A stretch of 64,000 nt of DNA from Methanoculleus formosensis (lineage in GTDB: Archaea; Halobacteriota; Methanomicrobia; Methanomicrobiales; Methanoculleaceae): positions 1-64,000 of the forward strand of contig NZ_VHLL01000003.1 in NCBI RefSeq assembly GCF_025384765.1, read 5' to 3'. Shown here in pieces: positions 1 through 22,549 of this stretch. Below the pieces are notes generated by a model that saw only the letters and a program-made list of their open reading frames with translations, did not search any database and was not told the origin of the DNA. The position numbers and the translations under genes were made by a program. The number at the start of each line of letters is the position of its first letter. Within the stretch, counting starts at the first letter, position 1.

Positions 1-658
1 TGTCCCCCTCCCAGCAATAGCGTTTTGGGACAACTTCCGGCATTGGAGAGGTGGCGGCTCACGGGGAGGGGGCGTGCCCCCCTCCCCTGCCTCTGCCCTG
101 TACGCTGACATCTGTAACCCCACTCGAAGACCTTCGGTTTTCTCAAACTCCTGGCGTTGTCCGTCGCCCTTCCAGGACAGTCGGCCTCCCCCCATATGGG
201 CGCTCGCAAACCTCTCCTAAAAAGTCCCCCACCACCCGCGCTTCGCGCTCCTCCCGCCCCCCAAGGGGGCGGGCAGTGCGTGGCGATAGGCGATGCCCCT
301 ACGGGACATCGCTGGAGAAGACCGAAGGCCTTAGACCGGCGATTTGCCAAAGGAGAAGAACACTAAGACCGAAGATGTAGTTCCCCGAAAGCCGTGCACG
401 GGCTTTGCGACAGAGTGAAGAAGGATCGTCCGTAAAAAGAATCTCCGCACACCCAAACCCCACCACCGGCACCTATTGAACCAGCGCGCCAGCCTTCAGG
501 GCTCGTCACTTTAGTAAACGCGCTCACCGGAACGCAATACTCCAACTCACCAGACCCCGCCCCCAACCCGATCCTGCAAAGATATATCTGGTCTCAAGCC
601 TGGAGTGACGCGGGCTCACCGGCCCCCGGTGAGAGTATCCAGCATGAGGTGAGGGAAA
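1..658. other. non-coding region with GC-rich repeat copy A
   Basis: No convincing gene lies before the sulfurtransferase start. The stretch holds repeat copy A (about 41-290) and downstream segments resembling the module that follows copy D (a GAGAAGACCGAAGG-like segment near 313-328 and AAAGCCGTGC near 389-398). The reading frames here are short, rich in Arg, Pro and Ser, and follow the palindromic DNA, so they are treated as shadows. Confidence 0.6.
41..290 (+). repeat. GC-rich palindromic intergenic element, copy A (long, divergent)
   Basis: This copy shares with the other three the block GGTGGCGGCTC followed by a GGGGAGGGGGC / GCCCCCCTCCCC hairpin. It also shares the right-hand CCCGCCCCC...GGGGGCGGG hairpin and the terminal GCAGTGCGTGGCGATA. 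About 100 extra bases lie between the two hairpins compared with copies B, C and D, so it looks like a diverged or inserted copy. Its boundaries are approximate. Confidence 0.65.
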
Positions 659-1621
659 ATGGAAGAGAAGATGTTTACTCCCGGCGGTATGGACCGGCTA
701 CAGGCCACGAGCGACCGGGAGAATATCCCGTATCCCCGGGGTGACGGGAAGGTCAAACTGGTGAACTCGGAGTGGCTGGACCGCCACCTGAGCGATGCCA
801 ACCTGAGAGTCGTCGACGTCCAGCCGAACATACACGACTACATCCAGGAGCACATCCCCGGTGCCGTCTATCTGACCGAAGGCGTCCTGCGGGTATCCAA
901 TCGCGGCTTCCCGGGGTCGTACAGCCCGAACGCCTGTATCCAGGAGTCTTTCAGGCGCGCGGGAATCGAGGCCGACTCTCCGGTCGTCGTCTACACGGGG
1001 AAAGGCGCGTTCTCCGGTGCGGGCGACGGGCTTGGTCAGACGATGATGGCCTATACTCTCGCGAAATACGGTCACAACACCGTGTACATCCTCGACGGCG
1101 GGATTGACGCATGGAAGAGCGAGGGGCGAGAACTCTCGCAGGACTATCCCGCGATCGAACCGTCCAGTTTCACCGTCGAGGTCCGCGACGACTACCCCAT
1201 CGGGTATGAGGAGTTCGTGCGGATCAAGGACAACGACGATGTGGTCCTGCTTGATGCACGCCCGGCAAAGGTCTATGAAGGGAAGGGGGCCTGGCGGAAG
1301 GCCGGGCATATCCCCGGTGCCATCAACCTGCCCTGGAGGAGCCTGATGGACGAGGCGAACCCGGCACGGCTCAAGTCCAACGACGAACTCGACATGATCC
1401 TGGAAGAGCACGGCGTCGACCGGAGCAAGACGGTCATCTGCTCGTGCGGAACCGGCCGGGAAGCCACGAACGAGTTCGTCCTCTTAAAATGGCTCTATCT
1501 CTATCCGAACGTCCGGCTCCACGAGGGCGCGTTCACCGAGTGGGTCACACACCCGGACAACCCGGTCGTAGAGGGGCCGGAGCCCCGAGGGGCGAGCGTT
1601 GAGGCGGCTCCCGCACGATAA
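659..1621 (+). CDS. sulfurtransferase with two rhodanese domains
   Basis: This is a thiosulfate/3-mercaptopyruvate-type sulfurtransferase of 320 residues. It would transfer a sulfane sulfur through a cysteine persulfide in the cytoplasm. An N-terminal rhodanese domain (about 35-155, beginning at NSEWLDRHL) is followed by the catalytic one (about 180-305). The active-site loop CSCGTGREAT starts at residue 261, and comparison with the CGSGVTA loop of sulfurtransferases points to Cys263 as the persulfide carrier. The N-terminal domain has no cysteine in the equivalent loop, as usual for two-domain members. A GAGGTGAGGG ribosome-binding sequence directly precedes the ATG. It appears to be a single-gene unit, and the physiological sulfur donor cannot be told from sequence. 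Confidence 0.9.
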   Translation: MEEKMFTPGGMDRLQATSDRENIPYPRGDGKVKLVNSEWLDRHLSDANLRVVDVQPNIHDYIQEHIPGAVYLTEGVLRVSNRGFPGSYSPNACIQESFRRAGIEADSPVVVYTGKGAFSGAGDGLGQTMMAYTLAKYGHNTVYILDGGIDAWKSEGRELSQDYPAIEPSSFTVEVRDDYPIGYEEFVRIKDNDDVVLLDARPAKVYEGKGAWRKAGHIPGAINLPWRSLMDEANPARLKSNDELDMILEEHGVDRSKTVICSCGTGREATNEFVLLKWLYLYPNVRLHEGAFTEWVTHPDNPVVEGPEPRGASVEAAPAR

Positions 1622-2232
1622 TCCTTAAATCCCCGGGCAACCGCCCAAAACCATTATTTTCTACATTTCCCAAACAGAAATCATTAAATATTAAACTGCA
1701 CTAGATAGACTTAGAGAGTTTTGGATCCACGCGAGACACTTCCCCCCTTGACGTCGTCTTTTCGTGTATCCTCTTCTCTCTAAACCGCATTTCTTCAGGA
1801 CTGTGTTCTACGGGAGGGTAGACTTTCGCGACGTATCACCCTTCTAACGAGAAAACCGTCGTCTGAATCACCGGTGGCCTGGATGTCCCATCTCTCCTGT
1901 CCCAGAAACATTTATGCTTATCAGCTGCCATGAGACACTCCGTGGGCCGTACTGTCGGCAGGATCGCTCCTATGGACGATGAATACCCGCTGATCGCACG
2001 GTTGGGGTCACCTTGTCGATATTTCTCGACCTGGAACTCCCTTATTGCTGCATGGCGGAGCACCGCTCTCTATGAGCCTCCCGATTATCGGGGTGCAGCG
2101 CCCGCCTCTGCGGGATCAGCTCCCGGAGAGAGCCTGTGGTCAGACATGAGGCATGAATCAGACCTCGAGGCATGGAGACTCGCGCTGCGGTAATACGCGC
2201 ATCGGCGGAGCCGCCGACGGTCGGGTGGAGCG
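1622..2232. other. intergenic region, no clear gene
   Basis: The first 100 bases are AT-rich (for example ATTAAATATTAAAC near 1683-1696) and look regulatory. An 87-codon frame at 1930-2193 and an overlapping one on the other strand have no recognisable motif. A possible promoter (ACATTTATGCTTA near 1908-1920) could drive transcription into the DUF389 gene. I see no RNA gene here. Confidence 0.4.
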
Positions 2233-3207
2233 ATGAAGAAGATCGTCGTTCACGTACGCGAAGACGGGCATAAACAGGTAGAGGACGCCCTCAAAGGCCT
2301 TCACTACACGGCATCACTCGTGCAGGATATCTACCAGATCACCATATACACGCCTGGCGAGAATCTCGACGACCTGATCGAGAAGATTCGCGGTGCGCTG
2401 GACCTCGAGTACAAGGAAAATATGATTGAGGTCTCGTCTCCAGACTTCGTCGTCTCCTCACTCCTCGAGCGTGCTGAGGAGAAGGCCGAAACGAAGGAAG
2501 AGAAAACGCCTGTTGAGAAACTGCTTGACACCATTAAGGGATACGAAGTTCTCGATCTCGGAAAACTTGCGTTAACGTCCATTGCCGGGGTGATCGCCCT
2601 CACCGGCCTGGTACTCGACAACCAGACGATCATCATCGGAGCGATGCTCCTCTCTCCGATCATGGGCCCAATCTACGGGTTCGCCGTCTACGCCGCTCTC
2701 GGGATGATCAAGAACGCCTTGCGTTGCCTGGGAGTGATGGCATCGCTGCTTCTCGGCGTCTTTATCCTCTCCGTCGTCGCCACATTCCTGATCGGCCTCA
2801 TCATACCGCTCGGGCTGACCGAAGAGATCACCACACGTCTCGTGTTAAACCCCATTTACACGCTGATGGCAGTGCTTCTCGGGTTCGCCGCGGCGCTGGC
2901 GTTCAACAGGGGCACAACAGAGGTTATCGCCGGTGTCGCCATCGCTGCCACCATCATCCCGCCGACCGTGGTAGCCGGGATCGTTCTGATCCTCGATCCC
3001 ATCGTCCTTCCCTCCGCTGTGGTGCTGGTGGCCGGGCAGATCGTCGGACTGATGGCAGGCATACTCGTCGCCGTCGCCGTGCTGAGGATAGAACCCCGGG
3101 ACCTGTACGACAGGACCGTTGCACGACGGTACCGGACATGGTCGGTCGTCATGATCATAATCCTCTTCACCCTGCTCCTCTGGCTCACAACACTCATGTG
3201 GATGTAG
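2233..3207 (+). CDS. DUF389 / TIGR00341 family membrane protein
   Basis: This is a conserved archaeal and bacterial membrane protein of 324 residues with no established function. A soluble N-terminal part (about 1-105) precedes a membrane domain with roughly six hydrophobic segments. The domain includes the family signature IGAMLLSPIMGPIYG around residue 137 and a glycine-rich AATIIPPTVVAGIVL segment. The N-terminal third is charged and ends in a Lys/Glu-rich linker. The ATG follows GGGTGGAGCG. The next gene is a separate regulator with its own promoter, so this gene is probably transcribed alone. The family call is secure but the substrate or role is unknown. Confidence 0.85.
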   Translation: MKKIVVHVREDGHKQVEDALKGLHYTASLVQDIYQITIYTPGENLDDLIEKIRGALDLEYKENMIEVSSPDFVVSSLLERAEEKAETKEEKTPVEKLLDTIKGYEVLDLGKLALTSIAGVIALTGLVLDNQTIIIGAMLLSPIMGPIYGFAVYAALGMIKNALRCLGVMASLLLGVFILSVVATFLIGLIIPLGLTEEITTRLVLNPIYTLMAVLLGFAAALAFNRGTTEVIAGVAIAATIIPPTVVAGIVLILDPIVLPSAVVLVAGQIVGLMAGILVAVAVLRIEPRDLYDRTVARRYRTWSVVMIIILFTLLLWLTTLMWM

Positions 3208-3260
3208 CGGCGGCACTGGAATGGGTATATCACTATAGTTATTCACCGAGCATACCGGTG

Positions 3261-3270
3261 ACATATATAC
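3261..3270 (+). promoter_or_regulatory. TATA box for the AbrB/PhoU regulator gene
   Basis: ACATATATAC lies about 50 bases before the ATG at 3316 and fits an archaeal TATA element, which would place transcription start near 3291. A second weaker element, GCATATACC, lies 15 bases further on. The inverted pair CACC/GGTG just upstream (3244-3260) could be an operator, but this is inference. Confidence 0.5.
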
Positions 3271-3315
3271 TCTCCAGAATGCATATACCCTCACTGCGCC
3301 AACACTGTAGCATTC

Positions 3316-4323
3316 ATGGAGATCAGAAAAGTTCAGATCACCGGGGGTTCGTCGTACATCGTATCCCTGCCGAAACAGTGGATCAGGTCCACGAACATAC
3401 AGAAGAACGATCCTGTAGGGCTGATCGTGCAGCCCGACGGTTCGCTCCTGATCACGCCGAAGATCAGCGGGGAGGTGGTCTACCGGACCAGGGTCTTCGA
3501 GGTCAGTGCCACGACGGACCGACCCTACCTGCTCCGCCTCCTCATCGGGGCGTACGTCGCCGGGTTCACGGCCATCCGCCTCGAATCGAAGGGAAGGATG
3601 CCGCCGTTTGTCCTGCAACTGGTCCGGGAGTTCACGCAGATGGCGATCGGCCAGGAGGTAGTCGGCGAGACGGACTCCTCAATAACTGTCAAGGATCTCC
3701 TCAACCCCGCAGAGATGCCGTTTGAGAACACCGTGAAAAGGATGCATGTCCTGGCACGGGGCATGCAGCAGGACGCGATGACCGCCTTACGGACGCACGA
3801 CGCGGATCTTGCCCGGGACGTCATCGTGCGGGACACGGAGGTAGACCGGTTGCATTGGCTCGTCGCGCGGCAGGACAACCTCATCGGGATCGACGCCGCG
3901 CTCTCCCGGCGGATGGAGATCCCGGTAAACCAGGCGGCGTACTACTTCCTGGTCAGCAGGATCATCGAGCGGATAGCCGATCACGCCACCCGGGTCGCCC
4001 ATAACGCGCTCGCCCTGATCGACCGCGAGGTCGAGGCGGCGACGCTCGACCTCATGGATGAAGCGAGCGCGCTTGCCCTGGAGATCTTCGCGTGGAGCAT
4101 GGAGGCGTTTCATTCGGGCGACATCAGGAAGGCAAATACAACGCTCCAGAGGGTGACCGACCTCGAGGAGAAGGTCCGGGAGATCAACACACAGGTGATC
4201 CGGTTCGAAGCGGCGACGGCGATCCCCCTGGGGCAGATTTCCGACAGTATCCGGCGTATCGGAGAGTATTCCGGGGACATCTGCGAGAGCGTCATAAACT
4301 ATACCGTCGGACAGGAGACCTGA
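3316..4323 (+). CDS. AbrB-domain / PhoU-domain phosphate uptake regulator
   Basis: The protein has 335 residues. An N-terminal SpoVT/AbrB-type DNA-binding swapped hairpin (1-45, MEIRKVQITGGSSYIVSLPK) is followed by two PhoU helical repeats at about 120-215 and 225-330. PhoU proteins respond to phosphate status, often through PstSCAB, and the AbrB fusion is typical of archaea and suggests a transcription regulator. Acidic residues of the PhoU metal-binding motifs are visible (for example RDTEVDRLHW and DLEEKVREIN). No pst genes are adjacent; the downstream gene is an anion or cation carrier 84 bases away that might be co-regulated. Confidence 0.85.
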   Translation: MEIRKVQITGGSSYIVSLPKQWIRSTNIQKNDPVGLIVQPDGSLLITPKISGEVVYRTRVFEVSATTDRPYLLRLLIGAYVAGFTAIRLESKGRMPPFVLQLVREFTQMAIGQEVVGETDSSITVKDLLNPAEMPFENTVKRMHVLARGMQQDAMTALRTHDADLARDVIVRDTEVDRLHWLVARQDNLIGIDAALSRRMEIPVNQAAYYFLVSRIIERIADHATRVAHNALALIDREVEAATLDLMDEASALALEIFAWSMEAFHSGDIRKANTTLQRVTDLEEKVREINTQVIRFEAATAIPLGQISDSIRRIGEYSGDICESVINYTVGQET

Positions 4324-4407
4324 GGGGCGAGCGCGGCCCCGGGTGATCCCTTTTTTCGAGCGGACGGCGAACCATCGATACACGCACACTCCCGTGCCCG
4401 CGATACC

Positions 4408-5658
4408 ATGAGCACCATCATCCCGATCGTCGTCCTCATCATCGTCTTTCTCCTGATTGCAGTCAGGAAGATCGGGAGCGTCAACTTTCGCATATGGCAG
4501 GTGATGCTCCTCGGCGCGGCGGCAGTCCTCGCGTCGGGGGCGATCGCACCCGCGGATGCGCTCGCGTCCATCAACCTCGATGTGATCTTCTTCCTCTTTT
4601 TCATGTTCGTGATCGGCGAGGCGCTCGCGGAGAGCGGTTACCTCTACCACCTCTCCCACAGGCTCTTCTCCCGGGCAGAGTCTGTCCGGCACCTGATCGT
4701 CCTCACTCTCGTCGGCGGCGGCTTCTTCTCGGCGCTCCTGATGAACGACACGCTCGCGGTCATCGGCACCCCGCTGATGCTCTACTTCGCCCGGCGACAC
4801 GGCATCTCCCCAAAACTCCTGCTGCTCACCCTTGCGTTCGCCATAACGACGGGAAGCGTGGTGAGTCCTATCGGGAACCCGCAGAACCTGCTCGTCGCAC
4901 TCTCGGGCGGGATCGAGAACCCGTTCATCACGTTCCCTCTCTACCTCGCCGTCCCGACGGTGATCTCGCTCCTGATCGCTTACGCCTTCCTCACGAGAGC
5001 CTTCCCGGGCGAGTTCCACGCGACGGCGCTGGTTCACACCGAGGAGGAGATCCGCGATCCCGCCCTCGCGGCACTCTCCCGCCTCTCGCTCATCCTGCTC
5101 GTTCTCCTGATCGCTGCAAAGGTCGTCGCGGCGATGCTCTTCCCGGCCTTTGAGATCGGGCTGACCTGGATCGCGGCCGTCGCGGCCATACCCGTCCTCG
5201 TCGGGAGCAGGCGGCGGTTCGAGATCGTGCGACGGATCGACTGGCCGACACTGGCCTTCTTCGTCGGCCTCTTCGTCCTGATGGCGAGCGTCTGGCAGTC
5301 GGGGTTCTTCCAGCCGCTCATCGAGGAGAGTTCGCTCGACCTTGCCGCCGTCCCGGTCATCGTCGCGATGGGCGTCGTCGTCTCCCAGTTCGTCTCGAAC
5401 GTCCCCTTCGTCGCCCTTGCCCTCCCGGTTCTCGAGCACCTCGGGGTCTCCACAGCCGGTCTGATGGCGCTTGCGGCCGGGAGCACCATCGCCGGGAACA
5501 TGCTGATCCTCGGCGCGGCAAGCAACGTCATCATCATCCAGTGCGCGGAGAAAGAAGGAGAGACACTGACATTTTGCGAGTTTGCACGGGTCGGCGTTCC
5601 GCTCACCCTTGCCCAGACGGCGGTGTATATGATCTGGCTCTCGCTCATCCCGGCGTGA
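4408..5658 (+). CDS. ArsB/NhaD (SLC13-like) superfamily ion transporter
   Basis: This is a polytopic membrane protein of 416 residues with about 11 hydrophobic segments. The re-entrant-loop motifs of the ion transporter superfamily are visible: NDTLAVIGTP in the first half with GSVVSPIGNPQN close after it, and NVPFVALALP plus GAASNVIII in the second half. These families move anions (arsenite, dicarboxylates, sulfate) or exchange Na+ and H+, and the substrate cannot be assigned. The gene follows the PhoU-type regulator in the same direction, which hints at an anion role but does not show it. A T-rich tract (CCTTTTTT, 4349-4356) between the two genes could terminate the upstream transcript. Confidence 0.8.
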   Translation: MSTIIPIVVLIIVFLLIAVRKIGSVNFRIWQVMLLGAAAVLASGAIAPADALASINLDVIFFLFFMFVIGEALAESGYLYHLSHRLFSRAESVRHLIVLTLVGGGFFSALLMNDTLAVIGTPLMLYFARRHGISPKLLLLTLAFAITTGSVVSPIGNPQNLLVALSGGIENPFITFPLYLAVPTVISLLIAYAFLTRAFPGEFHATALVHTEEEIRDPALAALSRLSLILLVLLIAAKVVAAMLFPAFEIGLTWIAAVAAIPVLVGSRRRFEIVRRIDWPTLAFFVGLFVLMASVWQSGFFQPLIEESSLDLAAVPVIVAMGVVVSQFVSNVPFVALALPVLEHLGVSTAGLMALAAGSTIAGNMLILGAASNVIIIQCAEKEGETLTFCEFARVGVPLTLAQTAVYMIWLSLIPA

Positions 5659-5662
5659 GGAT

Positions 5663-6538
5663 TCAGGGCCGAAACGACTCCATATGCCCCGGCGCCGCCC
5701 CGAGATCCAGGGAGATCGAACCGAACCGGATCGACGCCACGACGGCCGGGTCGAAAGGCGGGGCGAAGACCCCGAGCCGCCTTCCGGGATGCAGGTTCTC
5801 GACGATACCGAGGGCGACGACGAAGTTCTCGGGGTCGTTGAGGGAGATCAGCCTTCCGCCGATCCCGCGGGGGTTTCCGGGATCGGGCACTCTGCCCTGG
5901 AGCCCGAGACCCCGGAGCGGGATCTCCTGCAGTTCTGCGCCGGCAAAGTAGGCCCTGAAACGTTCCTCGCGGTAACGCCGCCGCGCGGCGGCAGGTCGGG
6001 CAACTGCCACAGGGGAGACAGCGATCCGGTGGATTATGACCCTGGGGCGGCGGGCGAAGTTTGCAAGCAGCCGTTCGAGTTCCCGGCCGCGCTGGAGGGC
6101 AACGATGCGGGTGGGACGGAGGAGGTCGATCATCTGGAACTGGAACTCGATACCCACCCCGCCGGAGACGAGTCCGGGGGAGTCGATGACGGTGACACGA
6201 GCACAGAGTTCGTCGGCCTTCTCGACAAGACGTTTTGCTCCGGTTATGGTCTGGACGAAGTGGCCGCCCGGGGACGTCGAACCGACGAACCGGAGATAGG
6301 AGTCCGACGGGCCGGGATAGACTTCCATCCCCTCGGTCGTCGGTGGGCCGATCCGGGACTGCCCGGTATCGCAGTCGATATACGCCGTCCTCGTCTGCGC
6401 CGCCGCCGTATCGACGAGGTAACGGCAGAGTGTCGTCTTTCCGCTATCCGTCGCCCCGATGGCGTAGATGCGCTCCCCGGCTTCAGGCCGGCAAAGCGTC
6501 GCGGCGAGGTCTTCCCATCCTTCCCCGATGCTGATCAA
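5663..6538 (-). CDS. Clp1/Grc3-type polynucleotide 5'-hydroxyl kinase
   Basis: A P-loop kinase of the Clp1/Nol9/Grc3 family, which phosphorylates 5'-OH ends of RNA (tRNA splicing and RNA repair in archaea). The Walker A motif GATDSGKTTL lies near residues 29-38, and a Walker B-like TVIDSPGLVSG follows in the first half. The C-terminal part (about 200-291) is the small beta domain usual in the family. The open frame extends to 6682, but that would overlap the divergent gene. A TTG at 6538 preceded by GGGAGG gives MISIGEGWEDL, which matches family starts, so I prefer it (291 residues). It converges with the transporter, only 4 bases apart. Confidence 0.75.
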   Translation of the reverse strand: MISIGEGWEDLAATLCRPEAGERIYAIGATDSGKTTLCRYLVDTAAAQTRTAYIDCDTGQSRIGPPTTEGMEVYPGPSDSYLRFVGSTSPGGHFVQTITGAKRLVEKADELCARVTVIDSPGLVSGGVGIEFQFQMIDLLRPTRIVALQRGRELERLLANFARRPRVIIHRIAVSPVAVARPAAARRRYREERFRAYFAGAELQEIPLRGLGLQGRVPDPGNPRGIGGRLISLNDPENFVVALGIVENLHPGRRLGVFAPPFDPAVVASIRFGSISLDLGAAPGHMESFRP

Positions 6539-6663
6539 ACCGGTACGCCTCCCTGGAGGAACTGTTGCGCTTGAGAGGTATTGTGCTTGACGTAGCGCCC
6601 CCTTCGAGGGCCGCATCTCACCCGGGAGAGGCTTTATCATGAGGGTGCCCTTACTGGCAGGCC

Positions 6664-7185
6664 ATGAACCGAACGGAAGCAACCAGCGAACCGGTGCCCG
6701 CAGCCCTCGGCAGGACGTTTCCCACCCTCATGGCAACGTCCCTCTCCGGCAGGGTCGTCACCCTCCCCGACGATGCCGGGGAGACCGCTTCGCTCGTCGT
6801 GCTCGCCTTCCTAGAATCCGCCGGGGAGATGGCGGAGTCCGGGAGCAGCCCGTTTTCCGGAGATTTCACCGAGAATCCACGGGTGAAGACCTACTTAGTT
6901 GCGGTCGTCGGCGACAGCCTCATCGGGAGTTCCCTCGCCGATCGCATCCGGCAGGGTCTTCGGGGCGGCACCCCTCTCGCGAAGCACGACCAGGTGCTGA
7001 TCTACCCTGAGGATATCGAACGGTGCCGGCGGGCTTATGGGATCGACGACCCGTCGCTCGCCTATATTTACCTCCTGGACGGGCGCGGCATCATCCGCTG
7101 GATGGAGAAGGGGACCGCAACGCCGGAGGGGCTTGCCGACCTGCTCGATACCGCCGGGACACTGATCGAACCGCTTCTCCCGTAA
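6664..7185 (+). CDS. thioredoxin-fold-like protein, function unknown
   Basis: The protein has 173 residues. The pattern RTFPTLMATSLSGRVVTLPDD, then LVVLAFLES, and later AYIYLLDGRGIIRWMEKG resembles a peroxiredoxin/thioredoxin fold with its C-terminal beta hairpin. There is no CxxC motif and no peroxidatic cysteine at the expected place, so a redox reaction is unlikely unless another residue is used. It is divergent from the polynucleotide kinase with a 125-base shared upstream region. A membrane-assembly (Atp10-like) role is possible but unproven. Confidence 0.6.
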   Translation: MNRTEATSEPVPAALGRTFPTLMATSLSGRVVTLPDDAGETASLVVLAFLESAGEMAESGSSPFSGDFTENPRVKTYLVAVVGDSLIGSSLADRIRQGLRGGTPLAKHDQVLIYPEDIERCRRAYGIDDPSLAYIYLLDGRGIIRWMEKGTATPEGLADLLDTAGTLIEPLLP

Positions 7186-7315
7186 CTCATGGCGGCGGGC
7201 CGGCAGCACGATCTGATCGGGCGGCATCCGGGAGCCATGGCCGCCCCGCCCCCTCCCGGCGAGAGAGGCCTGGCTTCCGGGGCGGTTGCGCGCCGCGGCA
7301 TGGTTCCAAAAAAGG

Positions 7316-7792
7316 TTAGAGGTTCTTTAAAGCAACGATATCGGTCACGCCGGTCAGTTTCCAGATGTTCGAACGCTCTTCGGAGGCGATCGCCTCGATC
7401 GGCTCCTCCGGCTTATGACCGAGCGCTGCAAGGATGTTCTTTGAGAGGTTGTGCGCCTTGATCATGTGCACGAACTTCTCGCGGATGAGCTTCTTCTCGA
7501 TCGCGTCCTCAAGCTGCACCAGGTATCCCTGCATCGTCACGAAGGTGTAGCAGGAGAGGTCGCTGGAGTACTTCTCGACCTCGACGGAGACATACGGGTG
7601 CTGCCGGAAGAGATCGTTCTTCCTGCCGTACTTGGTTGCCAGGAAGTAGAGAAACTTCCCATCGAAGACGTACAGGAACGGGGCAATATACGGATATTTA
7701 CGGCCCTGGAATGCAATACGGCTGAGAAAACCCTCCTCGATGAGCTTATCGTACTCCGCTTTGTCCATATTTGGTATCTTCACGATCTCCAT
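7316..7792 (-). CDS. pyridoxamine 5'-phosphate oxidase-like FMN-binding protein
   Basis: A split-barrel flavin-binding protein of 158 residues. The first half has the family pattern: LIEEGFLSRIAFQGRKYPYIAPFLYVF, then FLATKYGRKNDLF, then VSVEVEKY. The C-terminal part is helical. Archaeal members often bind FMN or F420, and the physiological substrate is unknown. It stands alone, divergent from the secreted-protein gene at 8434 across 640 bases. Confidence 0.8.
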   Translation of the reverse strand: MEIVKIPNMDKAEYDKLIEEGFLSRIAFQGRKYPYIAPFLYVFDGKFLYFLATKYGRKNDLFRQHPYVSVEVEKYSSDLSCYTFVTMQGYLVQLEDAIEKKLIREKFVHMIKAHNLSKNILAALGHKPEEPIEAIASEERSNIWKLTGVTDIVALKNL

Positions 7793-8179
7793 CAGGCATC
7801 CTCTTATTCCGGTAACCCGTGGGAGTACATATAGGTTTCCAGGGGAGGGGAGACGGCACCTTCGGAGTTCGACGCGACCGACCGGCAGCAGGTGCAGCCA
7901 CTATACTATCGGGCTCAAAAGAATCGAGGAACTTGACCCGTCGCGGAGCAGATCCATCGGCCCCTCTCCGTCGCGGGTTGTACATTACGGAGCAACAGAT
8001 TGAGATCCCCCCAGGTCTTCCCGCTCGTATCTCACCGGGGTACGGCTTTGCATGAGGATCACCATAACTGCCTCCGCCCCCGAGGGACCGGGGAGAAGCG
8101 CGAAGCGCATAGTGCCCGGTATATAACTGATGAACAATTCGGGTAGATCTGACGATCATTTCTAAAATTATGCCCTTAA

Positions 8180-8199
8180 AAAGCCCTATTTCGGGTTTT
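8180..8199 (+). terminator. terminator-like hairpin with T tail
   Basis: AAAGCCC and GGGTTTT can pair (7 bp including one G-T) around the loop TATTTC and end in TTTTA. Both neighbouring genes point away from it, so if functional it ends an unrecognised transcript. Confidence 0.3.
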
Positions 8200-8402
8200 A
8201 TCCATCCCCGGGAGGATTGAAACCCCATCCCACCCGCCGTCGCAGGAATCCCGCGTCTCGGGAGGGGTTTGCCTGCCGGCCCGGGTCTTTCGCGACGACT
8301 TCGGTTCCGCCGGGGACGCAACCCGGGAATGGCGGATATCCGTTGGCAGCGAAAACGGTTTTACCGGAGGAGTTATTTTTCAAAAAATGCAATATAATAA
8401 TA

Positions 8403-8410
8403 TTTATATA
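8403..8410 (+). promoter_or_regulatory. TATA box for the secreted-protein gene
   Basis: TTTATATA sits in a run of A and T. Usual archaeal spacing places transcription start near 8432, almost on the start codon, so the mRNA may be leaderless. This favours the second ATG (8434) over the first (8428). Confidence 0.6.
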
Positions 8411-15225: not shown

Positions 15226-15905
15226 TGCCGGCGACCCTCACTGACGACCTCAACCTCATCTACGACGCCCTCTTCGCGGCGTTCGGCCACCAGCACTGGT
15301 GGCCCGCAAAGACACCGTTCGAGACGATGGTCGGTGCGATCCTCACCCAGAACGTCTCCTGGAAGAACGCGGCGCAGGCCATCCGCAACCTCGAAGACGC
15401 CGGGATGCTCGACCCCCATCTCCTCGCTGCGGCCGAGGCCGCCGATATCGCCCGCCTGATCGTCCCTTCCCGCTACTACAACCAGAAGGCGGAGCGGGTC
15501 CGGGGTTTCGCCCGGGTCTACGTCGCCGAGTTCGGGGCCGACCCGGAGACGATGGCGTCCGTAGAGACCGGCGAACTCCGCGAACGGCTGCTCGCACTCC
15601 GGGGTTTCGGGAAGGAGACGACGGACACCATCCTGCTGTATGTCTGCAAAAAACCGGTCTTCGTCGTCGATGCGTATACTCGGCGGATATTCTCGCGCTA
15701 CGGCCTCCTTCCCGAAGGGGCGTCCTACGATCAGACGCAGCGGCTCTTTGCCGGGAACCTCGCTCCCGACGCGGAACTCTTCAACGACTACCACGCCCAG
15801 ATCGTGCGCCTGGGGAACACCACCTGCAGAAGAACGCCTGTCTGCGACCGCTGCCCCATCCGGGAGGTTCGCGGGAAGATCCGGTGTGCCGTGGGGCGGG
15901 GGTGA
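15225..15905 (+). CDS. MagIII-like HhH-GPD DNA glycosylase
   Basis: A helix-hairpin-helix glycosylase of 226 residues for base-excision repair. Landmarks are the N-terminal HWWPAKTPFE and GAILTQNVSW, the HhH segment LRGFGKETTD, the catalytic Asp in FVVDAYTRR, and a C-terminal four-cysteine set (spacings 5, 2 and 10). In endonuclease III a lysine follows the hairpin glycines (GxGRKT); here the place is Glu, so the protein should be a monofunctional glycosylase like MagIII (3-methyladenine). The cysteine spacing differs from the 6-2-5 of endonuclease III, so a [4Fe-4S] cluster is possible but unsure. The ATG overlaps the nadE stop. Confidence 0.8.
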   Translation: MPATLTDDLNLIYDALFAAFGHQHWWPAKTPFETMVGAILTQNVSWKNAAQAIRNLEDAGMLDPHLLAAAEAADIARLIVPSRYYNQKAERVRGFARVYVAEFGADPETMASVETGELRERLLALRGFGKETTDTILLYVCKKPVFVVDAYTRRIFSRYGLLPEGASYDQTQRLFAGNLAPDAELFNDYHAQIVRLGNTTCRRTPVCDRCPIREVRGKIRCAVGRG

Positions 15906-15959
15906 AGGGTGTTAGGCCTTCTGTGGCGCGAAGGGAAGGGAGACGCGTATCACAGACTC

Positions 15960-16283
15960 TGCTGAAACCCTTTTTCGCTCTTCCCCTACCCCGACGGGGT
16001 TGATGCTGGGCCCGGCAGTCCCTAGGATCAGCCTTTTTCCTCGAACATCCCCATGCAGTGGACCGTGGTGGCTATCCCCATTGGGGGTGGCGGCTCGCGG
16101 GGAGGGGGCGTGCCCCCTCCCCTGTCTCCACCTTATGTAGCAATATCTGAAAACCCCACCCCGCCCGGCCTTCGGCCTCCTCCCCCGCCCCAAGGGCGGG
16201 GGCAGTCATGGCGATATTTGGTGGAAAGCCGTGCTCTTGGATTGCAATCATCCGGGGTAAACAGGTAGGGATTCAATAAAGCC
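15960..16283 (+). repeat. modular repeat unit B (324 bp)
   Basis: It starts with TGCTGAAACC, runs through GCTGGGCCCGGC and TTTTTCCTCGAAC, then CCCCATGCAGTGGACCGTGG. The palindromic core follows, and the unit ends with GGTGGAAAGCCGTGC and an AAACAG...ATTCAATAAAGCC tail. The same order of blocks occurs in 22126-22549, which carries an additional segment of about 90 bases after the core. The two units are similar but not identical. Confidence 0.7.
16072..16216 (+). repeat. GC-rich palindromic element, copy B
   Basis: The core element is 145 bp. It contains a perfect 11-bp stem (GGGGAGGGGGC 16099-16109, GCCCCCTCCCC 16112-16122, loop GT), a small GGCC-TTC-GGCC hairpin, and a CCCCCGCCC / GGGCGGGGG stem. 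The ends are CTATCCCCATTGGGGG on the left and TCATGGCGATAT on the right. Confidence 0.75.
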
Positions 16284-16403
16284 ATGTCGCACAGATCTCG
16301 CGGCTTCACACGAACTTTCAGAGCATGGATGATGATACCGCTCACGCAAAATGAGCGATGGCTCTCCCCGGGCCGCCAGCGCCGGAAGAGCGTCAATGCC
16401 CGC

Positions 16404-16583
16404 TCACTTCGCCCGGTAGATGTTCAGCCCGATCTTGATCTCCTCGTGTCCCGGCACTGAGACGTTCCCCTCGGTGGAAGCGATCGTTATCGACTTCCCG
16501 CTCTTGGACGCCCCGAACTCCTTTCCGAGATCCACCCGTATGGTGAGAATGTTCTTCTCGACCGCCATATCGACGTTTTTCAT
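16404..16583 (-). CDS. small conserved archaeal protein, function unknown
   Basis: The product has 59 residues with the regular pattern KNILTIRVDLGKEFGASKSG, then KSITIASTEGN, and ends in KIGLNIYRAK. It reads like the short conserved methanogen protein family I recall, and I know of no assigned role. Three starts are possible: ATG at 16586, 16583 or 16565 (giving MAVEKN). GGAG directly precedes the first two, and I selected 16583. It is divergent from recQ with about 140 bases between. Confidence 0.6.
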   Translation of the reverse strand: MKNVDMAVEKNILTIRVDLGKEFGASKSGKSITIASTEGNVSVPGHEEIKIGLNIYRAK

Positions 16584-16724
16584 CATCTCCAGTACTCGCG
16601 TCCCCCGCGGATATGCGCTTCGATACGGGGGGAGGCGCGGAAGATCTCTCTGCCGCCGTTCGGGACAACAAACCCTATCCCGGCTCCCGCCCAACCCTAC
16701 CAGCAGATCGGATATCGTGGCACA

Positions 16725-18539
16725 ATGAATACAAAATACAGTGTTCTGGAGAAATACTTCGGCTACACGTCGTTCCTTCCCCACCAGGAGGAGATCGTCG
16801 ACGCCGTCCTCAGCGGCCGCGACGTCCTCGCCGTCATGGCAACCGGGGGCGGTAAGTCTCTCTGCTACCAGCTCCCCGCTCTCGTCTTCGGCGGACTTAC
16901 GGTCGTCGTCTCGCCGCTCATCGCCCTGATGAAAGACCAGGTCGACAGCCTCCGGGCAAACGGCATTCCAGCCGCGACGATCAACAGTTCGCTCGGGTAC
17001 GGGGAGCAGAAGATCGTCGAGCGGGTGATCCTCGAAGGCCGCATCCGGATCCTCTACGTTTCGCCGGAGCGGGCGGTGCAGCCGTTCTTCCTCTCGCTCA
17101 TCGCAAAAGCGGACGTCCGGCTCATCGCCATCGACGAGGCGCACTGCATCTCCATGTGGGGGCACAACTTCCGCCCCGAATACCGCCGGCTCCGGATGCT
17201 CAAAGAGCGGTTCCCCGCCGTCCCCGTCATCGCCCTGACCGCGACCGCCATCCCCGCCGTCCAGAACGACATCGCGGTCGAACTCGCTCTCTCGAACCCG
17301 GTCAGATTCGTCGGGAGTTTCAACCGCAAAAACCTCACCTACCGGGTGGTGCCGAAGGCCCGCTACTTCCCGAGACTGGTCGCGTATCTCACCGAACACC
17401 CGAACGATGCCGGGATCATATACTGCTTCTCCCAGAAGGCGACGGAGGAACTCGCAAAGAAACTGCAGGATAAGGGGTTCTCGGCGCTGCCCTATCACGC
17501 CGGCCTCCCGGACAGCGTCCGCGCGGAGCACCAGGAGGCCTTCTCCCGCGGCGACGTCGCGATCATCTGCGCCACCGTCGCCTTCGGCATGGGCATCGAC
17601 AAACCGGACGTGCGGTTCGTCATCCACACCGACCTCCCGAAGGATATCGAGTCCTACTACCAGGAGACCGGCAGAGCAGGGAGGGACGGAGAGCCGGGCG
17701 ACTGTATCCTCTTCTATTCCCGCGGCGACTACGGCACGATCCGGTACATCATCGAGAAGGAATGCACCGATGCGACGCAGAAAGACGTTGCCTACCGGAA
17801 AGTCGGGATGATGCTCGACTACTGCGAGACCACCGGGTGCCGGAGGAAGTTCCTGCTCGCCTACTTCGGCGAGTCCTACCCGGAAGAGCGGTGCGGCGGG
17901 TGCGACCGGTGTGAGACGCCGGTGAAGGTCTTCGACGGGACAGAGGCCGCGTCACTGGTCATCACCTGCGTCCACGAGACCGGAGAACAGTTCGGCGCAT
18001 CCTACATCGCCGACGTGCTCACCGGCTCGAAGAGCAATAGGATCCGCGAGAACGGGCACGACCGTATTCCGGCTTACGGCTCCGGCAGGGGGTACACCCG
18101 CGATCAGTGGCTGCTCTTCATCCAGGAGATGGTCGGGAAGGGGTTCGTCACGTCGACCGGCGGCCGGTACCCCGTCCTCGTCTCGAACGACCGGAGCCGG
18201 GCTGTGCTCGCGGGGGAGATCGCGGTGCCGCTCGCAGAGCCGCGTCCAGATGGCGTCGTCGCGGCACGGGTCGAGAACGACTACGACGAGGCCCTCTTCC
18301 TCCGGCTCCGGCAACTCCGGAAAGTCGTCGCCGACCTTGATCGAGTGCCGCCGTTCGTCGTCTTCCACGATAGAACCCTCAAGGAGATGGCAACGTCTTA
18401 TCCGGGAACCGGCGTAGCCCTCCTCGGGATCTACGGCGTCAGCGAGGCGAAACTGAAACGTTACGGCAGGAGGTTCCTCGACGCCATCGAGAAGCACTGC
18501 GCCGAACACGGGATCGGGCCGGAGCAGCGGAGCGGGTGA
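16725..18539 (+). CDS. recQ: RecQ-family ATP-dependent DNA helicase
   Basis: A 3'-5' helicase of 604 residues. Walker A is ATGGGKSLCYQLPA (about 41-54) and the DEAH box is AIDEAHCISMWGHNFRPEY (about 131-149, RecQ signature). The helicase C motifs include YCFSQKATEEL, ATVAFGMGIDKPDVR and QETGRAGRDG. A zinc-binding subdomain (CRRKFLLAYFGE, CGGCDRC), a winged helix and a C-terminal HRDC domain (about 525-595) complete a full-length RecQ. It would act in repair and replication-fork processing. It appears monocistronic. Confidence 0.95.
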   Translation: MNTKYSVLEKYFGYTSFLPHQEEIVDAVLSGRDVLAVMATGGGKSLCYQLPALVFGGLTVVVSPLIALMKDQVDSLRANGIPAATINSSLGYGEQKIVERVILEGRIRILYVSPERAVQPFFLSLIAKADVRLIAIDEAHCISMWGHNFRPEYRRLRMLKERFPAVPVIALTATAIPAVQNDIAVELALSNPVRFVGSFNRKNLTYRVVPKARYFPRLVAYLTEHPNDAGIIYCFSQKATEELAKKLQDKGFSALPYHAGLPDSVRAEHQEAFSRGDVAIICATVAFGMGIDKPDVRFVIHTDLPKDIESYYQETGRAGRDGEPGDCILFYSRGDYGTIRYIIEKECTDATQKDVAYRKVGMMLDYCETTGCRRKFLLAYFGESYPEERCGGCDRCETPVKVFDGTEAASLVITCVHETGEQFGASYIADVLTGSKSNRIRENGHDRIPAYGSGRGYTRDQWLLFIQEMVGKGFVTSTGGRYPVLVSNDRSRAVLAGEIAVPLAEPRPDGVVAARVENDYDEALFLRLRQLRKVVADLDRVPPFVVFHDRTLKEMATSYPGTGVALLGIYGVSEAKLKRYGRRFLDAIEKHCAEHGIGPEQRSG

Positions 18540-18623
18540 CCCCCATCCTACGTAAACACCATAAAACTATCCAGAGCTCGATGTATTAATGAACAAGGAG
18601 TGTTAAATTCATGTACAGGGCAT

Positions 18624-19592
18624 ATGCGGCTCATTTCATGGAACGTGGATCTCTTCCGCTCCGGTCTTAAGAGCGTGGAGAAGAAAGTCGAAGCTATCTG
18701 CCAGCACTCGCCTGATATCGTCGCATTCCAGGAGGTGACTGACCGGACCCTGCCGCTCTTCCGAGAAGAGCTGGAGAAGTACGGGCTGTTCCACTCCGTC
18801 GACAGCCTTGCGCTGGTGGAGATCGCACGGGTGGCCTACATGGCCGAGCGGCTGAACGATCTCCGTGCACGGGGCACAAACGACCCATTTCAGTTCGCGT
18901 ACAGCGTCTCCCGGCTCTCCGAGCAGTACTCGCCTCCAGGTGAGGCAAAGGATGTCGGGTGCCTGATCGCGAGCAGGTATCCTCTCGCGCCGCTAAACCC
19001 GCTCGACTTCGATATCCCATGGAGACAGCGGGTAGTCTCTGCCGTCGTCAGCGCACCGGCCGGCGAATTCGAGGTCCACAACGTCCATGTGCCGTCGGCC
19101 ATAGGAAACAGGAGGAATGAGATCGTCAAGGCCGAGACGCTGGTCGGGATCTACCGGCACCTCGCCGTTCATTCGGCACGGCCGCGGATCCTCTGCGGCG
19201 ACCTCCACATCCCGGAGGCGGAGCTCCCCGACGGAACGATCGTTCCTTTCTATCAAGATATCTTACCGGACAAAGCCTACACCACCACGATCTCCGAGAG
19301 CGACGAATACCTCGGCCGCCCGAGACGGTGGTGGTACAACGCCGAGATGAACGTCCTCCCCGGTCTCGCGGAGTACGACCTCCCCGACGTCTTCCGGAGA
19401 CTCCACGGCTACCAGGCGAGGGAGTACAGCTGGTGCCCCGACCGCGGACCGGAGGACGTCCCGAAGTGCAAACGCTACGACCACATCTTCGCGTCCGTGC
19501 GCCTCAACCCGACGGCGTGCTGGTACCTCCACGGCCTCCGGGGGCAGGGGTTGAGCGACCACTCCGCCGTCGTGATGGACTTCGAACCGTGA
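18624..19592 (+). CDS. endonuclease/exonuclease/phosphatase (EEP) family protein
   Basis: A metal-dependent EEP fold protein of 322 residues. Visible motifs are ISWNVDLF at the N-terminus, AFQEVTD (metal-binding Glu), VHNVHVPS, CGDLHIPE at the place of the usual GDLN, and the terminal LSDHSAVVMDF. The family includes AP endonucleases, phosphatases and nucleases; the substrate is not evident. The frame is open from a GTG at 18600, but MRLISWN at 18624 fits the family. It follows recQ in the same direction after 84 bases. Confidence 0.8.
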   Translation: MRLISWNVDLFRSGLKSVEKKVEAICQHSPDIVAFQEVTDRTLPLFREELEKYGLFHSVDSLALVEIARVAYMAERLNDLRARGTNDPFQFAYSVSRLSEQYSPPGEAKDVGCLIASRYPLAPLNPLDFDIPWRQRVVSAVVSAPAGEFEVHNVHVPSAIGNRRNEIVKAETLVGIYRHLAVHSARPRILCGDLHIPEAELPDGTIVPFYQDILPDKAYTTTISESDEYLGRPRRWWYNAEMNVLPGLAEYDLPDVFRRLHGYQAREYSWCPDRGPEDVPKCKRYDHIFASVRLNPTACWYLHGLRGQGLSDHSAVVMDFEP

Positions 19593-19616
19593 TCCCCTCC
19601 TTAAATCGTGGCTCTG

Positions 19617-20378
19617 CTAACTCGGTTTTGCTGAAATCCCGTTCCGGACTTGCCGATTGAGCTCCGCAAGCGTTCTGAGCGATTCGTAGCCGCTCAAACT
19701 GATGCAGTACTCCCCTCGGTCTCCGCGCTGGCGGATCAGGTCGACCTCCAGGAGTTTTTCCAGGTGGAAGAGGAGGTTTCCCCCGCGCAGACCGGTGATC
19801 TTTGCGAGATCCGAGAACGACCTTCCTTCTCGATAAAGCGCCTTGAGGATCCGGACCCGGTGAGGGCTGCTCAGGGGGTAACAGATCCTGTCCGCGAGGC
19901 TCTCCGGCGAGAGATCATCGATGCCACGCTCTCCCTCCTGCTCATCCCGATTGCCGTGGATCGACTCGATCAGCCGGAGTTGGCGGTCAAGCTGCCTGCC
20001 TGCCTCTCGAAAACAGGGGGTGCAGTGGTCGGTCGGGGCGTTGTGCTGCAGAACCGCGAGCCGTTCCCTGGCCGCGCTGACGGCTTCGAGCGGAACCTCT
20101 CCGGTCTTCAGGTGCTCGATCGTGCTCTCGAAAAGGGCAGCAAAAGCAGCCTTACACTGTTCCGCCAGAGGACAACCCGAAACCTCTCGGTCGATCAGGT
20201 CGCTTGCGGTCTCGATATGTCCGCGCACGGCGGCTTCGGCGCACTGCCGCCGGAACTCGGAGAAGAGTTGGTCCACCTTCCGGCCGTCTGGAACGGCGTA
20301 CCGCCGGATTTCAGCCCGGAGCTCTGCAACCTCATGCCGGAGCGCAGCGAATTCCGAATCATCGGTTGGTATTCTCAT
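19617..20378 (-). CDS. winged-helix transcription regulator with cysteine-containing sensor part
   Basis: The protein has 253 residues. The C-terminal 85 residues form an ArsR-like winged helix (PLSSPHRVRILKALYREGRSF, SDLAKITGLRGGNLLFHLEKLLEVDLI in pieces). The N-terminal 160 residues are helical and contain two pairs of cysteines, GCPLAEQC near 69 and HCTPCF near 119, which could bind a metal or Fe-S cluster or form disulfides. It is divergent from an FMN-binding protein gene with 133 bases between, a typical layout for a regulator and its target. Regulation of that gene is inference. Confidence 0.75.
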   Translation of the reverse strand: MRIPTDDSEFAALRHEVAELRAEIRRYAVPDGRKVDQLFSEFRRQCAEAAVRGHIETASDLIDREVSGCPLAEQCKAAFAALFESTIEHLKTGEVPLEAVSAARERLAVLQHNAPTDHCTPCFREAGRQLDRQLRLIESIHGNRDEQEGERGIDDLSPESLADRICYPLSSPHRVRILKALYREGRSFSDLAKITGLRGGNLLFHLEKLLEVDLIRQRGDRGEYCISLSGYESLRTLAELNRQVRNGISAKPS

Positions 20379-20469
20379 GGTCTCTCACGTCTCTGCGACG
20401 GGGCGGCGCGGCACGCCGGGTCAGGGTTCTGTAGCGTCGCCGTTACAACTACAGTTTTCTGACAAATTA

Positions 20470-20480
20470 CTATATAAATA
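20470..20480 (+). promoter_or_regulatory. TATA box for the FMN-binding protein gene
   Basis: CTATATAAATA precedes the ATG at 20512 by about 35 bases and predicts transcription start near 20501. The ribosome-binding GGTGAAA lies between. The divergent regulator starts 92 bases away. Confidence 0.6.
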
Positions 20481-20511
20481 TGTAGTTCAGAGAATGTATT
20501 GGTGAAAAACG

Positions 20512-20916
20512 ATGGTTGCACTTACTGAAGAGATGAAGACGGCGTTTCGGACGATGAAGGCCTTCCCGGTCGCCACGGCCTCGAAGGAAGGCTGGCCGAA
20601 CGTGGTGCCGATCGGGTTCGTCGAGATCGTCGACGACGAGACGATCTGGATAGCGGACAACTTCATGAAGAAGACGCTTGCAAATATCCAGGAGAACCCG
20701 AAGGTCTCCATCTACGTCTGGGGACCCGAGACGAAGGGCTGCTTCCAGGTCAAGGGCGACGTCGAGATTCGGTCGAGCGGTCCGGAGTTTGAGAAGATGC
20801 AGTTTACCGTCCGGTCGAAGATGGCGAAAGCACCGGCAAAGAACCTCCTCATCGTGAAGATCCGGGAAGTTTACGAGTGCACGCCCGGACCGAAGGCAGG
20901 GGAGAAGATCCTCTAA
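20512..20916 (+). CDS. pyridoxamine 5'-phosphate oxidase-like flavin-binding protein
   Basis: A compact split-barrel protein of 134 residues: KAFPVATASKEGWPNVVPIGF, then DDETIWIADNFMKKTLANI in the region expected to hold the flavin phosphate, then KVSIYVW. The full length matches short archaeal FMN-binding proteins. The substrate is unknown. A T7 tract right after the stop (20919-20925) is a likely terminator. It is distinct from the 158-residue relative at 7316-7792. Confidence 0.8.
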   Translation: MVALTEEMKTAFRTMKAFPVATASKEGWPNVVPIGFVEIVDDETIWIADNFMKKTLANIQENPKVSIYVWGPETKGCFQVKGDVEIRSSGPEFEKMQFTVRSKMAKAPAKNLLIVKIREVYECTPGPKAGEKIL

Positions 20917-21352
20917 CTTTTTTTGAGAAGCCCCGCGGGATCTGCCGTGGGTAACTCCTACGACCCTCTCCCGGTTTCCCTTGTGCCGCAGGCGACTACC
21001 CATCCACAGATTTCCGTTGACTATCGCCACTGGGGGAGGCGGCTCGCGGGGAGGGGGAACATCCCCCTCCTCTGTCTCCACTCCTAAACTGATGTCTACA
21101 ACCCCCACCCCACCCGGCCTTCGGCCTCCTCCCCCGCCCCTTTGGGGCGGGGGCAGTGCATGGCGATATCCCCATGATCCACTGTACGGGACTTTTCACG
21201 AACCCAAACGGTTCTGGCGATCACCTAAAGAGGCCAGGATCAACCAACCATCTTCCATACGTTCGCGCCGCCTCACAGAGGGGACTGCCTTCCGGGTTCT
21301 AAACTATTTTCCCGCGCCGGGGCCAACGCTTCCTTCCGGATGTGACAGAAGA
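20917..21352. other. intergenic region with terminator tract and repeat copy C
   Basis: It begins with the T7 tract after the FMN gene and then carries repeat copy C (21022-21168). It ends with about 180 bases in which I see no gene. A long open frame crosses the region (from 20981) only because it is in phase with the flavoprotein gene. Confidence 0.55.
21022..21168 (+). repeat. GC-rich palindromic element, copy C
   Basis: This copy is 147 bp and has the clearest boundaries: TATCGCCA (21022-21029) and TGGCGATA (21161-21168) form a perfect 8-bp terminal inverted repeat. Inside are a GAGGGGG / CCCCCTC stem with loop AACAT and a CCCCCGCCCC / GGGGCGGGGG stem with loop TTT. The loops differ from copies B and D while the stems are kept. 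ATCCACTGTACGG follows at 21177-21189 and resembles the reverse complement of the CAGTGGACCGT found 5' of copies B and D. Confidence 0.75.
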
Positions 21353-22027
21353 GTGAAGATAACTGCAGTTGTGGGAAGCCCACGGGGGATGCGGAGCAGG
21401 ACAAGAAAACTAGTGAACTTCGTGCTTGCCGGGGCAGAAGAGGCCGGTGCCGTGGTCGACCTCATCGATCTCGCTGACATGGAGATCGCCCCCTGCACCG
21501 CCTGCGAGAGCTGCAGCCTGGACGGGACGTGCGTCTTTGCCGACGACTTCTCCGCCGCGTACGACCGGATACAGGACGCCGACGGGCTGGTCTTCGCCTC
21601 GCCGGTCTACGTCGACAACGTCAGCGGGCAGATGAAGGTCTTCATCGACCGGCTGGCGGACGCCATGCACTACCAGAACCTCGCCGGGAAGTACGGTTGC
21701 AGCGTCGCGACCACCGGGATCTCGGGAGGCGATGCGGTCACGGGCTACCTGAATCACGTGTTCAACTACCTCGGGGTGACGACGATCGGGGGGATGAGCG
21801 CCGCGCTCGGCAGCGACACGGAGGCGCTCGACCGGGCTGAGGCGGCGGCGCGCGATCTCGGGAAGCAGCTCGCCCTCGCCGTCAGGGACCGGCCGCGCTA
21901 TCCCGATCAGGAGGCCGAGATGGCAGAGAACCGGGAGTACTTCGCCGGGATAGTGCGGGCAAACCGGGACTGGCGGCCAGACGGGTACGAGCGGTGGGTG
22001 CGCGAGGGCTGGATCAGGGAGGAATGA
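21353..22027 (+). CDS. iron-sulfur flavoprotein (NADPH-dependent FMN reductase fold)
   Basis: An Isf-type protein of 224 residues. A flavodoxin-like FMN loop near the N-terminus (VVGSPRGMRSRTRKLV) is followed by the compact cysteine motif CTACESCSLDGTC (spacings 2, 2, 5), which binds [4Fe-4S] in Isf proteins. ASPVYVDNVSGQMK completes the FMN site. Methanogen Isf proteins pass electrons from ferredoxin to oxidants such as O2 or H2O2. The start is taken as GTG at 21353 because KITAVVGSPRG is the family beginning; the frame stays open much further upstream. Repeat copies C and D flank it in the same orientation. Confidence 0.85.
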   Translation: MKITAVVGSPRGMRSRTRKLVNFVLAGAEEAGAVVDLIDLADMEIAPCTACESCSLDGTCVFADDFSAAYDRIQDADGLVFASPVYVDNVSGQMKVFIDRLADAMHYQNLAGKYGCSVATTGISGGDAVTGYLNHVFNYLGVTTIGGMSAALGSDTEALDRAEAAARDLGKQLALAVRDRPRYPDQEAEMAENREYFAGIVRANRDWRPDGYERWVREGWIREE

Positions 22028-22125
22028 AGAGACCGGCAGTCATTAGATCGTCTCGCCGGTACCGTTGGTTCCGGACCGGACACGGGGAGCTGTATCTTGC
22101 CATAGAAGAGCGGAACTACCGGTTC

Positions 22126-22549
22126 TGCTGAAACCGTGTTCCATCTTCATCCTTTCCTGATGAGGTTAACGCTGGGCCCGGCTGTCCCCCAGGATCAACC
22201 TTTTTCCTCGAACAGCCCCATGCAGTGGACCGTGGGAGAATCGCCATTGGGGGTGGGGCTGACGGGGAGGGGGCACGCCCCCTCCCCTGTCTCCACCATA
22301 CAGGGATCAGTCTACAACCCCACCCCGCCCGGCCTCCGGCCTCCTCCCCCGCCCCGAGGGGCGGGGGCAGTCAGGGCGATATGCGACAGGCTGAAGGGTA
22401 GGAGCAGGAGAAGACCGAAGGTCTGGACTTGCGATGGACGGAACGTCCGGAGCACGAGCACCGCTAGATGCGCAGCCCGGTGGAAAGCCGTGCCCCCGAG
22501 TACCCCTGATTGCGGCCATCTAGATCAAACAGGGGGTTCAACAAGGCCG
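22126..22549 (+). repeat. modular repeat unit D (424 bp)
   Basis: It has the same block order as unit B: TGCTGAAACC, GCTGGGCCCGGC, TTTTTCCTCGAAC, CCCCATGCAGTGGACCGTGG, palindromic core, GGTGGAAAGCCGTGC and an AAACAG...GTTCAACAAGGCC tail. An additional segment of about 90 bases (22387-22478) lies between the core and the GGTGGAAAGCC block, with small hairpins such as AGACCGAAGGTCT and GGACGGAACGTCC. A similar GAAGACCGAAGG segment follows copy A. Confidence 0.7.
22240..22381 (+). repeat. GC-rich palindromic element, copy D
   Basis: The left end reads ATCGCCATTGGGGG and the right end GGGCGATAT. Inner stems are GGGGAGGGGGC / GCCCCCTCCCC with loop AC, and CCCCCGCCCC / GGGGCGGGGG with loop GA. Length and order match copies B and C. 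Confidence 0.75.

Follow-up and report, generated by a model that had tools for sequence, protein, structure and literature searches.

What are the palindromic elements that recur between the genes of the 64,000-nucleotide stretch of Methanoculleus formosensis DNA analysed here (hereafter the window; G000:C3:1-64000, where G000 is the 2.65 Mb genome that holds it)? An earlier note, made from the letters of the window, had described four copies, here called A to D, and proposed either a non-autonomous mobile element resembling a miniature inverted-repeat transposable element (MITE) or a REP sequence, or a transcribed structured RNA. All four copies were recovered where they had been placed, on the + strand and outside the called genes, and they are indeed devoid of coding capacity. 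We consider it rather likely that they belong to a palindromic non-coding repeat of MITE, SMR or BOX kind that acts as DNA, is mobilised in trans and hosts a second, nested double-hairpin repeat.

The core of copy C is the best preserved and was used as the search query. It is bounded by the perfect inverted repeat TATCGCCA/TGGCGATA, as previously noted, while the shared unit turned out to reach beyond this boundary into outer arms. Cores measure 140-150 bp, are closed by TATCGCCA/TGGCGATA and are flanked by two outer arms (CCCRTRCAGTGGACCGTGG, GGAAATCCGTG); the type 2 arm is CCCRTRCAGTGGACCGTGG and the type 1 arm the reverse complement of GGAAATCCGTGCAYGGG. Inward of the terminal repeats lies a G-rich stretch that pairs partially with a later C-rich stretch, and the hairpins follow in the order G-rich (GGGGAGGGGG/CCCCCTCCCC), linker, short GGCC or GCGC hairpin with a GAA, GGA or GCA loop on the - strand, and C-rich. 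The arm layout of 109 non-redundant full cores was 2/1 in 55 cases, 1/2 in 14, 1/1 in 11 and 2/2 in one, the remainder being unclear, and the core thus sits in either orientation between its arms. We rejected the idea that the arms are a separate target palindrome for core insertion: a terminal repeat follows 129 of 145 type-2 arms, and the remaining ones mostly hold the nested modules considered below in its place, which indicates that the arms are part of the unit.

The family extends far beyond four copies, with 52 blastn matches to copy C in G000. These lie on both strands, so that the common orientation previously reported holds inside the window and not genome-wide. All 24 congeners first sampled carry the element, with copy numbers from 2 to 67+, and it is more weakly represented beyond the genus. 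With a covariance model, the complete congener G003 yielded 67 matches, many other congeners at least 26 and G012 two. G127, which represents a different genus of the family, gave 48 matches and its sister G095 none; weak ones turned up in other parts of the order. Because the best match in G066, which belongs to another family, has the same ends by eye (TATCGCCA/ATGGCGATA), the core may predate the genus or have been shared sideways. The exact right-end pattern also occurs in GTDB-collection records of Methanoculleus, including M. chikugoensis and M. sediminis, and in records labelled Methanomicrobiales or Euryarchaeota, and searches of phage, plasmid and viral collections gave no match to the element. 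Along G003:C1 the copies are unevenly spread, being dense at ~1.05-1.95 Mb and few towards either end of the numbering, and some form runs on a single strand. An earlier description of the repeat family was not found in the literature searched.

Comparison of orthologous sites revealed both presence and absence of the element. Between its anchors site B measures ~40 bp in G046, G003, G005, G009, G010 and G024, and ~530 bp in the window; site D measures 60-63 bp in G046, G004 and G006, and 566-675 bp in the window, G003 and G019; and at the L244 site 1 bp separates the genes in G046, against 383 bp in G003. Of the 28 independent sites in G003, flanking genes identify 16 as also occupied in the window genome, and inspection adds at least two (L242, L252). 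The copies are therefore old and mostly inherited, though sites differ. Segment 20997-21234 of site C is block-inverted in its entirety in the orthologous loci of G006, G016 and G043, and a second site is inverted in G019 and G006 relative to G003. Such rearrangements, together with nested and tandemly expanded palindromes, cassette swaps between paralogous copies and the failure to find either target duplications or a transposase, could also be accommodated without any transposition, if template switching and slippage enlarged palindromes in situ and gene conversion between copies spread them in a polyploid archaeon. We regard this as distinctly improbable: it does not easily explain how a complete element, both arms included, comes to stand where 1-60 bp separate the genes of relatives, nor the gain or loss of a 49 bp module in almost identical sequence.

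The genomic setting of the copies was analysed in 30 copies from G000 and 30 from G003, with genes predicted by a codon-usage caller trained on the window. All 60 are intergenic; 33 (55%) lie between convergent genes, 23 between co-directional and 4 between divergent ones, whereas background gene pairs are 20% convergent, 58% co-directional and 22% divergent (Fisher p = 9e-7 and 0.006, somewhat optimistic values since a few neighbouring copies are non-independent). In co-directional settings the element showed no preferred orientation (10 vs 13). Domesticated copies, kept by selection as bidirectional transcription barriers or terminators, or as binding sites for nucleoid proteins between convergent genes, would produce this strong convergent bias with few divergent cases, and they would fit the strong hairpins on both strands and the many sites conserved between species ~91% identical in their flanking genes. 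Yet some orthologous sites of close relatives are entirely without a copy, G012 manages with just two, and co-directional copies prefer neither orientation. Besides, pneumococcal BOX, RUP and insertion sequence (IS) elements are reported to display the same bias, which has been read as tolerance (PMC3049150). Domestication is thus, in our view, unlikely to be the main explanation.

We then considered whether the structure is kept as RNA or as DNA. In 86 cores 95.7% of the cells of the drawn structure are paired, and the covariation score is 0.066, versus 0.033 in shuffled and 0.019-0.028 in slid controls. However, 39 of the 50 double-change cells are one linked GGCC-for-GCGC swap and 8 are one C-rich-stem swap. 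The core double changes look like cassette exchange rather than many independent changes, and swaps of this type were seen between paralogous copies. The previous argument from kept stems to kept structure is right in its outcome, but the strongest evidence for it is in the nested modules, which had been missed. Folds of single copies reach z-scores of -2.0 to -4.5 against shuffles as RNA and about -3.7 as DNA; the RNA folds, with the 52 matches in the genome, set the family beyond chance. Loops were compared between hairpins within 350 bp of cores and hairpins elsewhere, GNA triloops being counted on either strand. GNA-type triloops (GNA/TNC) stand at 48% near cores versus 15% elsewhere, and GNYA-type tetraloops at 20% versus 4%, while the GNRA tetraloops, the stable class in RNA, are not enriched near cores (6% versus 8%). 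Common descent of the modules inflates these counts, yet the G and the A are constant whereas the central bases change. GNA and GNNA loops are unusually stable in DNA.

These loops, the inversions at fixed sites and the absent orientation bias favour DNA, not RNA, as the form that matters, and they make the element unlikely as a structured RNA. A small RNA or riboregulator whose stems covary through selection on the transcript would account for the kept pairing, for some of the double changes and for the folding z-scores, and it was one of the two proposals of the earlier note. No Rfam family matched at gathering or relaxed thresholds, where tRNA and one sub-threshold chance match were all that appeared. 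A transcript is further at odds with the lack of a fixed orientation to genes, the inversion of whole copies between orthologues, double changes that are mostly one linked cassette, DNA folds that are stable too and the unenriched GNRA loops, and we give this proposal very little credence.

Within many copies, at a few positions, lie double-hairpin modules of 38-49 bp with the form CGA-stem-GNA-stem-GAGyyyGA-stem-GNA/GNYA-stem-G, in which the stems vary and the pairing is perfect. A search by flanks alone (GCGA...GAGC/T and GAGC/TnnGA...GA, requiring five or more perfect pairs and a loop no longer than five bases) gave 52 non-redundant type-A and 146 type-B hairpins, with 21 stem sequences per class, against 0-2 with scrambled flanks. 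A 49 bp module cleanly distinguishes G019 from G006 in flanking sequence identical but for one base, and the copy at site D carries modules of 38 and 46 bp in G003 that are absent from the window orthologue, again as clean indels. No target duplication was seen in these presence/absence pairs. The 46 and 49 bp modules have their first hairpin in common (AACGA-CTGCCG-GAA-CGGCAG-GAGTTCGA), differ in the second, and lie in opposite arms in opposite orientation. A copy in G074, matching site C in its left flank, contains an 87 bp unit of four hairpins repeated 5.3 times in tandem with 99% matches; the window copy has none. Tandem arrays of modules could also be what underlies the 45- and 51-nt satellite families that one survey lists, without interpretation, for M. 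marisnigri (PMC6749651). Separately, a further inverted-repeat family, CTCACGCGAAG...CTTCGCGTGAG, occurs at other or orthologous intergenic sites (L302 in G006, L274 in G000, L235 and L346 in G019) and can likewise carry double-hairpin modules.

Genomes contain between 0 and 74 exact matches to one module variant, and a reversed control gave none. The number of these matches does not track that of the cores: G012 has 2 cores and 26 modules, while in G127, with its 48 cores, this variant is missing. This independence makes the modules a family of their own. More tentatively, and with the balance of our judgement against it, they might form a separate class of archaeal mobile micro-DNA, copied via folded single-stranded DNA by some enzyme and the counterpart of mitochondrial double-hairpin elements. 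On this proposal pairing and GNA/GNYA loops would be kept, and stem sequence left free, because copying proceeds through the folded strand.

Which activity could have moved the repeat? Matches to the Y1 transposase (PF01797) are absent from G000 and from 28 of the 35 genomes of the genus, including G003, G014, G016, G019 and G006, and G020 has 19 such matches, yet a single match to the element. An IS200/Y1 transposase was therefore rejected as the driver, being absent from high-copy genomes and unrelated to copy number. Ends common to an autonomous IS did not turn up in the loci read, in which no systematic IS-end search was made. A type-2 arm at ~23064 of G000:C7, in this genome without Y1, lies within or beside a frame reading like the C terminus of TnpB, the IS200/IS605 accessory protein. 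The MITE- or REP-like proposal holds in kind: the element is short, non-coding and intergenic, has terminal inverted repeats, high and patchy copy number, and filled and empty orthologous sites. A MITE in the strict sense does not follow, since neither a target duplication nor a partner transposase was found, and REP/RAYT is contradicted.

According to the reading we favour, that of a DNA repeat mobilised in trans, each copy is a nest of inverted repeats, with the outer arms enclosing TATCGCCA/TGGCGATA and these in turn the G-rich, GNA-loop and C-rich hairpins. In the past, within the ancestor of the genus and its relatives, a transposition-like activity provided in trans would have spread the repeat, which would now persist mainly by vertical descent, as a parasitic or near-neutral sequence. 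The sites kept would be those where insertion does least harm, at downstream gene ends and above all between convergent genes. The modules would move or be copied through a folded single-stranded DNA hairpin, a step with which the resemblance of their loops to stable DNA mini-hairpins is consistent, and the palindromes may invite inversion and conversion.

Several observations weigh against this reading. The intergenic location and convergent bias also fit a functional terminator or insulator; no candidate transposase was found, IS200/Y1 being the sole type tested; and at least 16 of the 28 G003 sites are common to G000, so that movement must now be slow. Gain and loss are unpolarised by an outgroup at most filled/empty sites. 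A target-site duplication was not found in aligned filled/empty pairs, whose inserts are composite with blurred boundaries, and several filled sites have gained 300-800 bp that hold other repeats, which leaves a single transposition event without clean boundaries.

In the window itself, where all features are on the + strand unless indicated, the cores of B, C and D measure 142-147 bp and match one another with blastn E-values of ~1e-34 or better. Copy A (41-288) aligns as the same core, eroded at its left end and interrupted by an insert in the centre, which makes its matches to the others weaker (1e-12 to 1e-4). It comprises a G-rich hairpin (63-87), the insert (~94-225), a hairpin at 238-248, a C-rich hairpin (253-273) and the right terminal repeat TGGCGATA (281-288). 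The hairpin at 238-248 is the GGCC hairpin previously judged unclear in this copy; it is present as the GCGC variant, a paired change. The copy is long because ~130 bp, including a mini-hairpin module read at 123-144 on the - strand (CTCGAAGACCTTCGGTTTTCTC, GAA loop on that strand), sits in mid-core. A second mini-hairpin module (GAGAAGACCGAAGGCCTTAGACC, 315-337), to its right, resembles the right flank of the site-D copy of G019.

Copy B consists of a type-2 arm (CCCATGCAGTGGACCGTGG, 16050-16068), the core TATCCCCA...TGGCGATA (16073-16216, by blastn and folding) with its G-rich (16099-16122), GGCC (16167-16177) and C-rich (16182-16202) hairpins, and a type-1 arm (GGTGGAAAGCCGTGC, 16220-16234). 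Copy D has the same arms around its core (22239-22381), CCCATGCAGTGGACCGTGG at 22217-22235 and GGTGGAAAGCCGTGC at 22479-22493, and its right terminal repeat is separated from arm 1 by double-hairpin modules (22408-22473, namely 22408-22428, 22433-22452 and 22456-22473). Compared with B and D, copy C has its core flipped relative to the arms, with a type-1 arm on the left (CCCATCCACAGATTTCC, 20999-21015), the core at 21022-21168 (by blastn and folding) and a type-2 arm on the right (CATGATCCACTGTACGGG, 21173-21190). B and D have ~110 bp more in common on their left (15958-16068 and 22124-22235), which indicates that some copies are part of a longer composite unit, also at L023, L032 and L090. 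To the right of copy B lies a gene for a RecQ-type helicase with RQC and HRDC domains (16725-18539) and to its left one for an HhH-GPD DNA repair protein, a neighbourhood that is probably coincidental. Elsewhere in G000, the locus L276 (G000:C12:34800-36300) has a direct repeat, GTTTCAATCCCTATCGGGTTTTCTGATGAGCTGTGAC, with spacers and looks like a CRISPR array.

The repeat offers an archaeal model, with clean differences between species, for how palindromic repeats spread without a transposase and whether hairpin DNA itself is what moves, and these questions are testable because the genus includes culturable methanogens. It also carries a warning: stems that covary within repeats are no proof of RNA, and the loops here follow the DNA rule. 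Of the known systems, REP/BIME with RAYT and PATEs with IS200/IS605 are likewise short intergenic palindromes in many copies, but the high-copy Methanoculleus genomes lack the Y1 transposase, and the Methanoculleus element ends in inverted repeats, a feature absent from PATEs by definition. SMR-A of Haloquadratum walsbyi is an archaeal repeat of ~110 bp, present in tens of copies, that inserts into palindromes of IS605-type elements and into PATEs (PMC3119063). Like our repeat it has prominent inverted terminal repeats and an unexplained mobilisation; SMR-A has no similarity to a transposon and makes no target duplication, and none was seen in the filled/empty pairs read here. In contrast to SMR-A, compared here by description and not by sequence, the Methanoculleus arms nearly always come with a core (129 of 145 for type 2) and nested modules are carried.

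BOX of Streptococcus pneumoniae (PMC3049150) shares fixed ends, a variable number of internal hairpin modules, over-representation between convergent genes, slow current turnover and the absence of a transposase of its own, although it belongs to another domain of life, so that homology to boxA, boxB or boxC would not be expected, and has another layout, and the Methanoculleus modules have stems that vary yet pair and also occur outside the element. The double-hairpin elements and GC clusters of mitochondria (PMC4478555 and works cited there) are GC-rich, hairpin-forming, intergenic and ~40-50 bp long, and they too show presence and absence between strains, merging and nesting. The modules share with double-hairpin elements two adjacent hairpins, clean insertion and nesting, a likeness of architecture that does not imply descent. 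Yeast GC clusters differ by their AG or ACT target duplications, none of which were seen in Methanoculleus, and by residing in an organelle rather than on an archaeal chromosome. Altogether, while we claim membership in none of these groups, the repeat appears to work most like SMRs, BOX and the GC clusters of yeast mitochondria.

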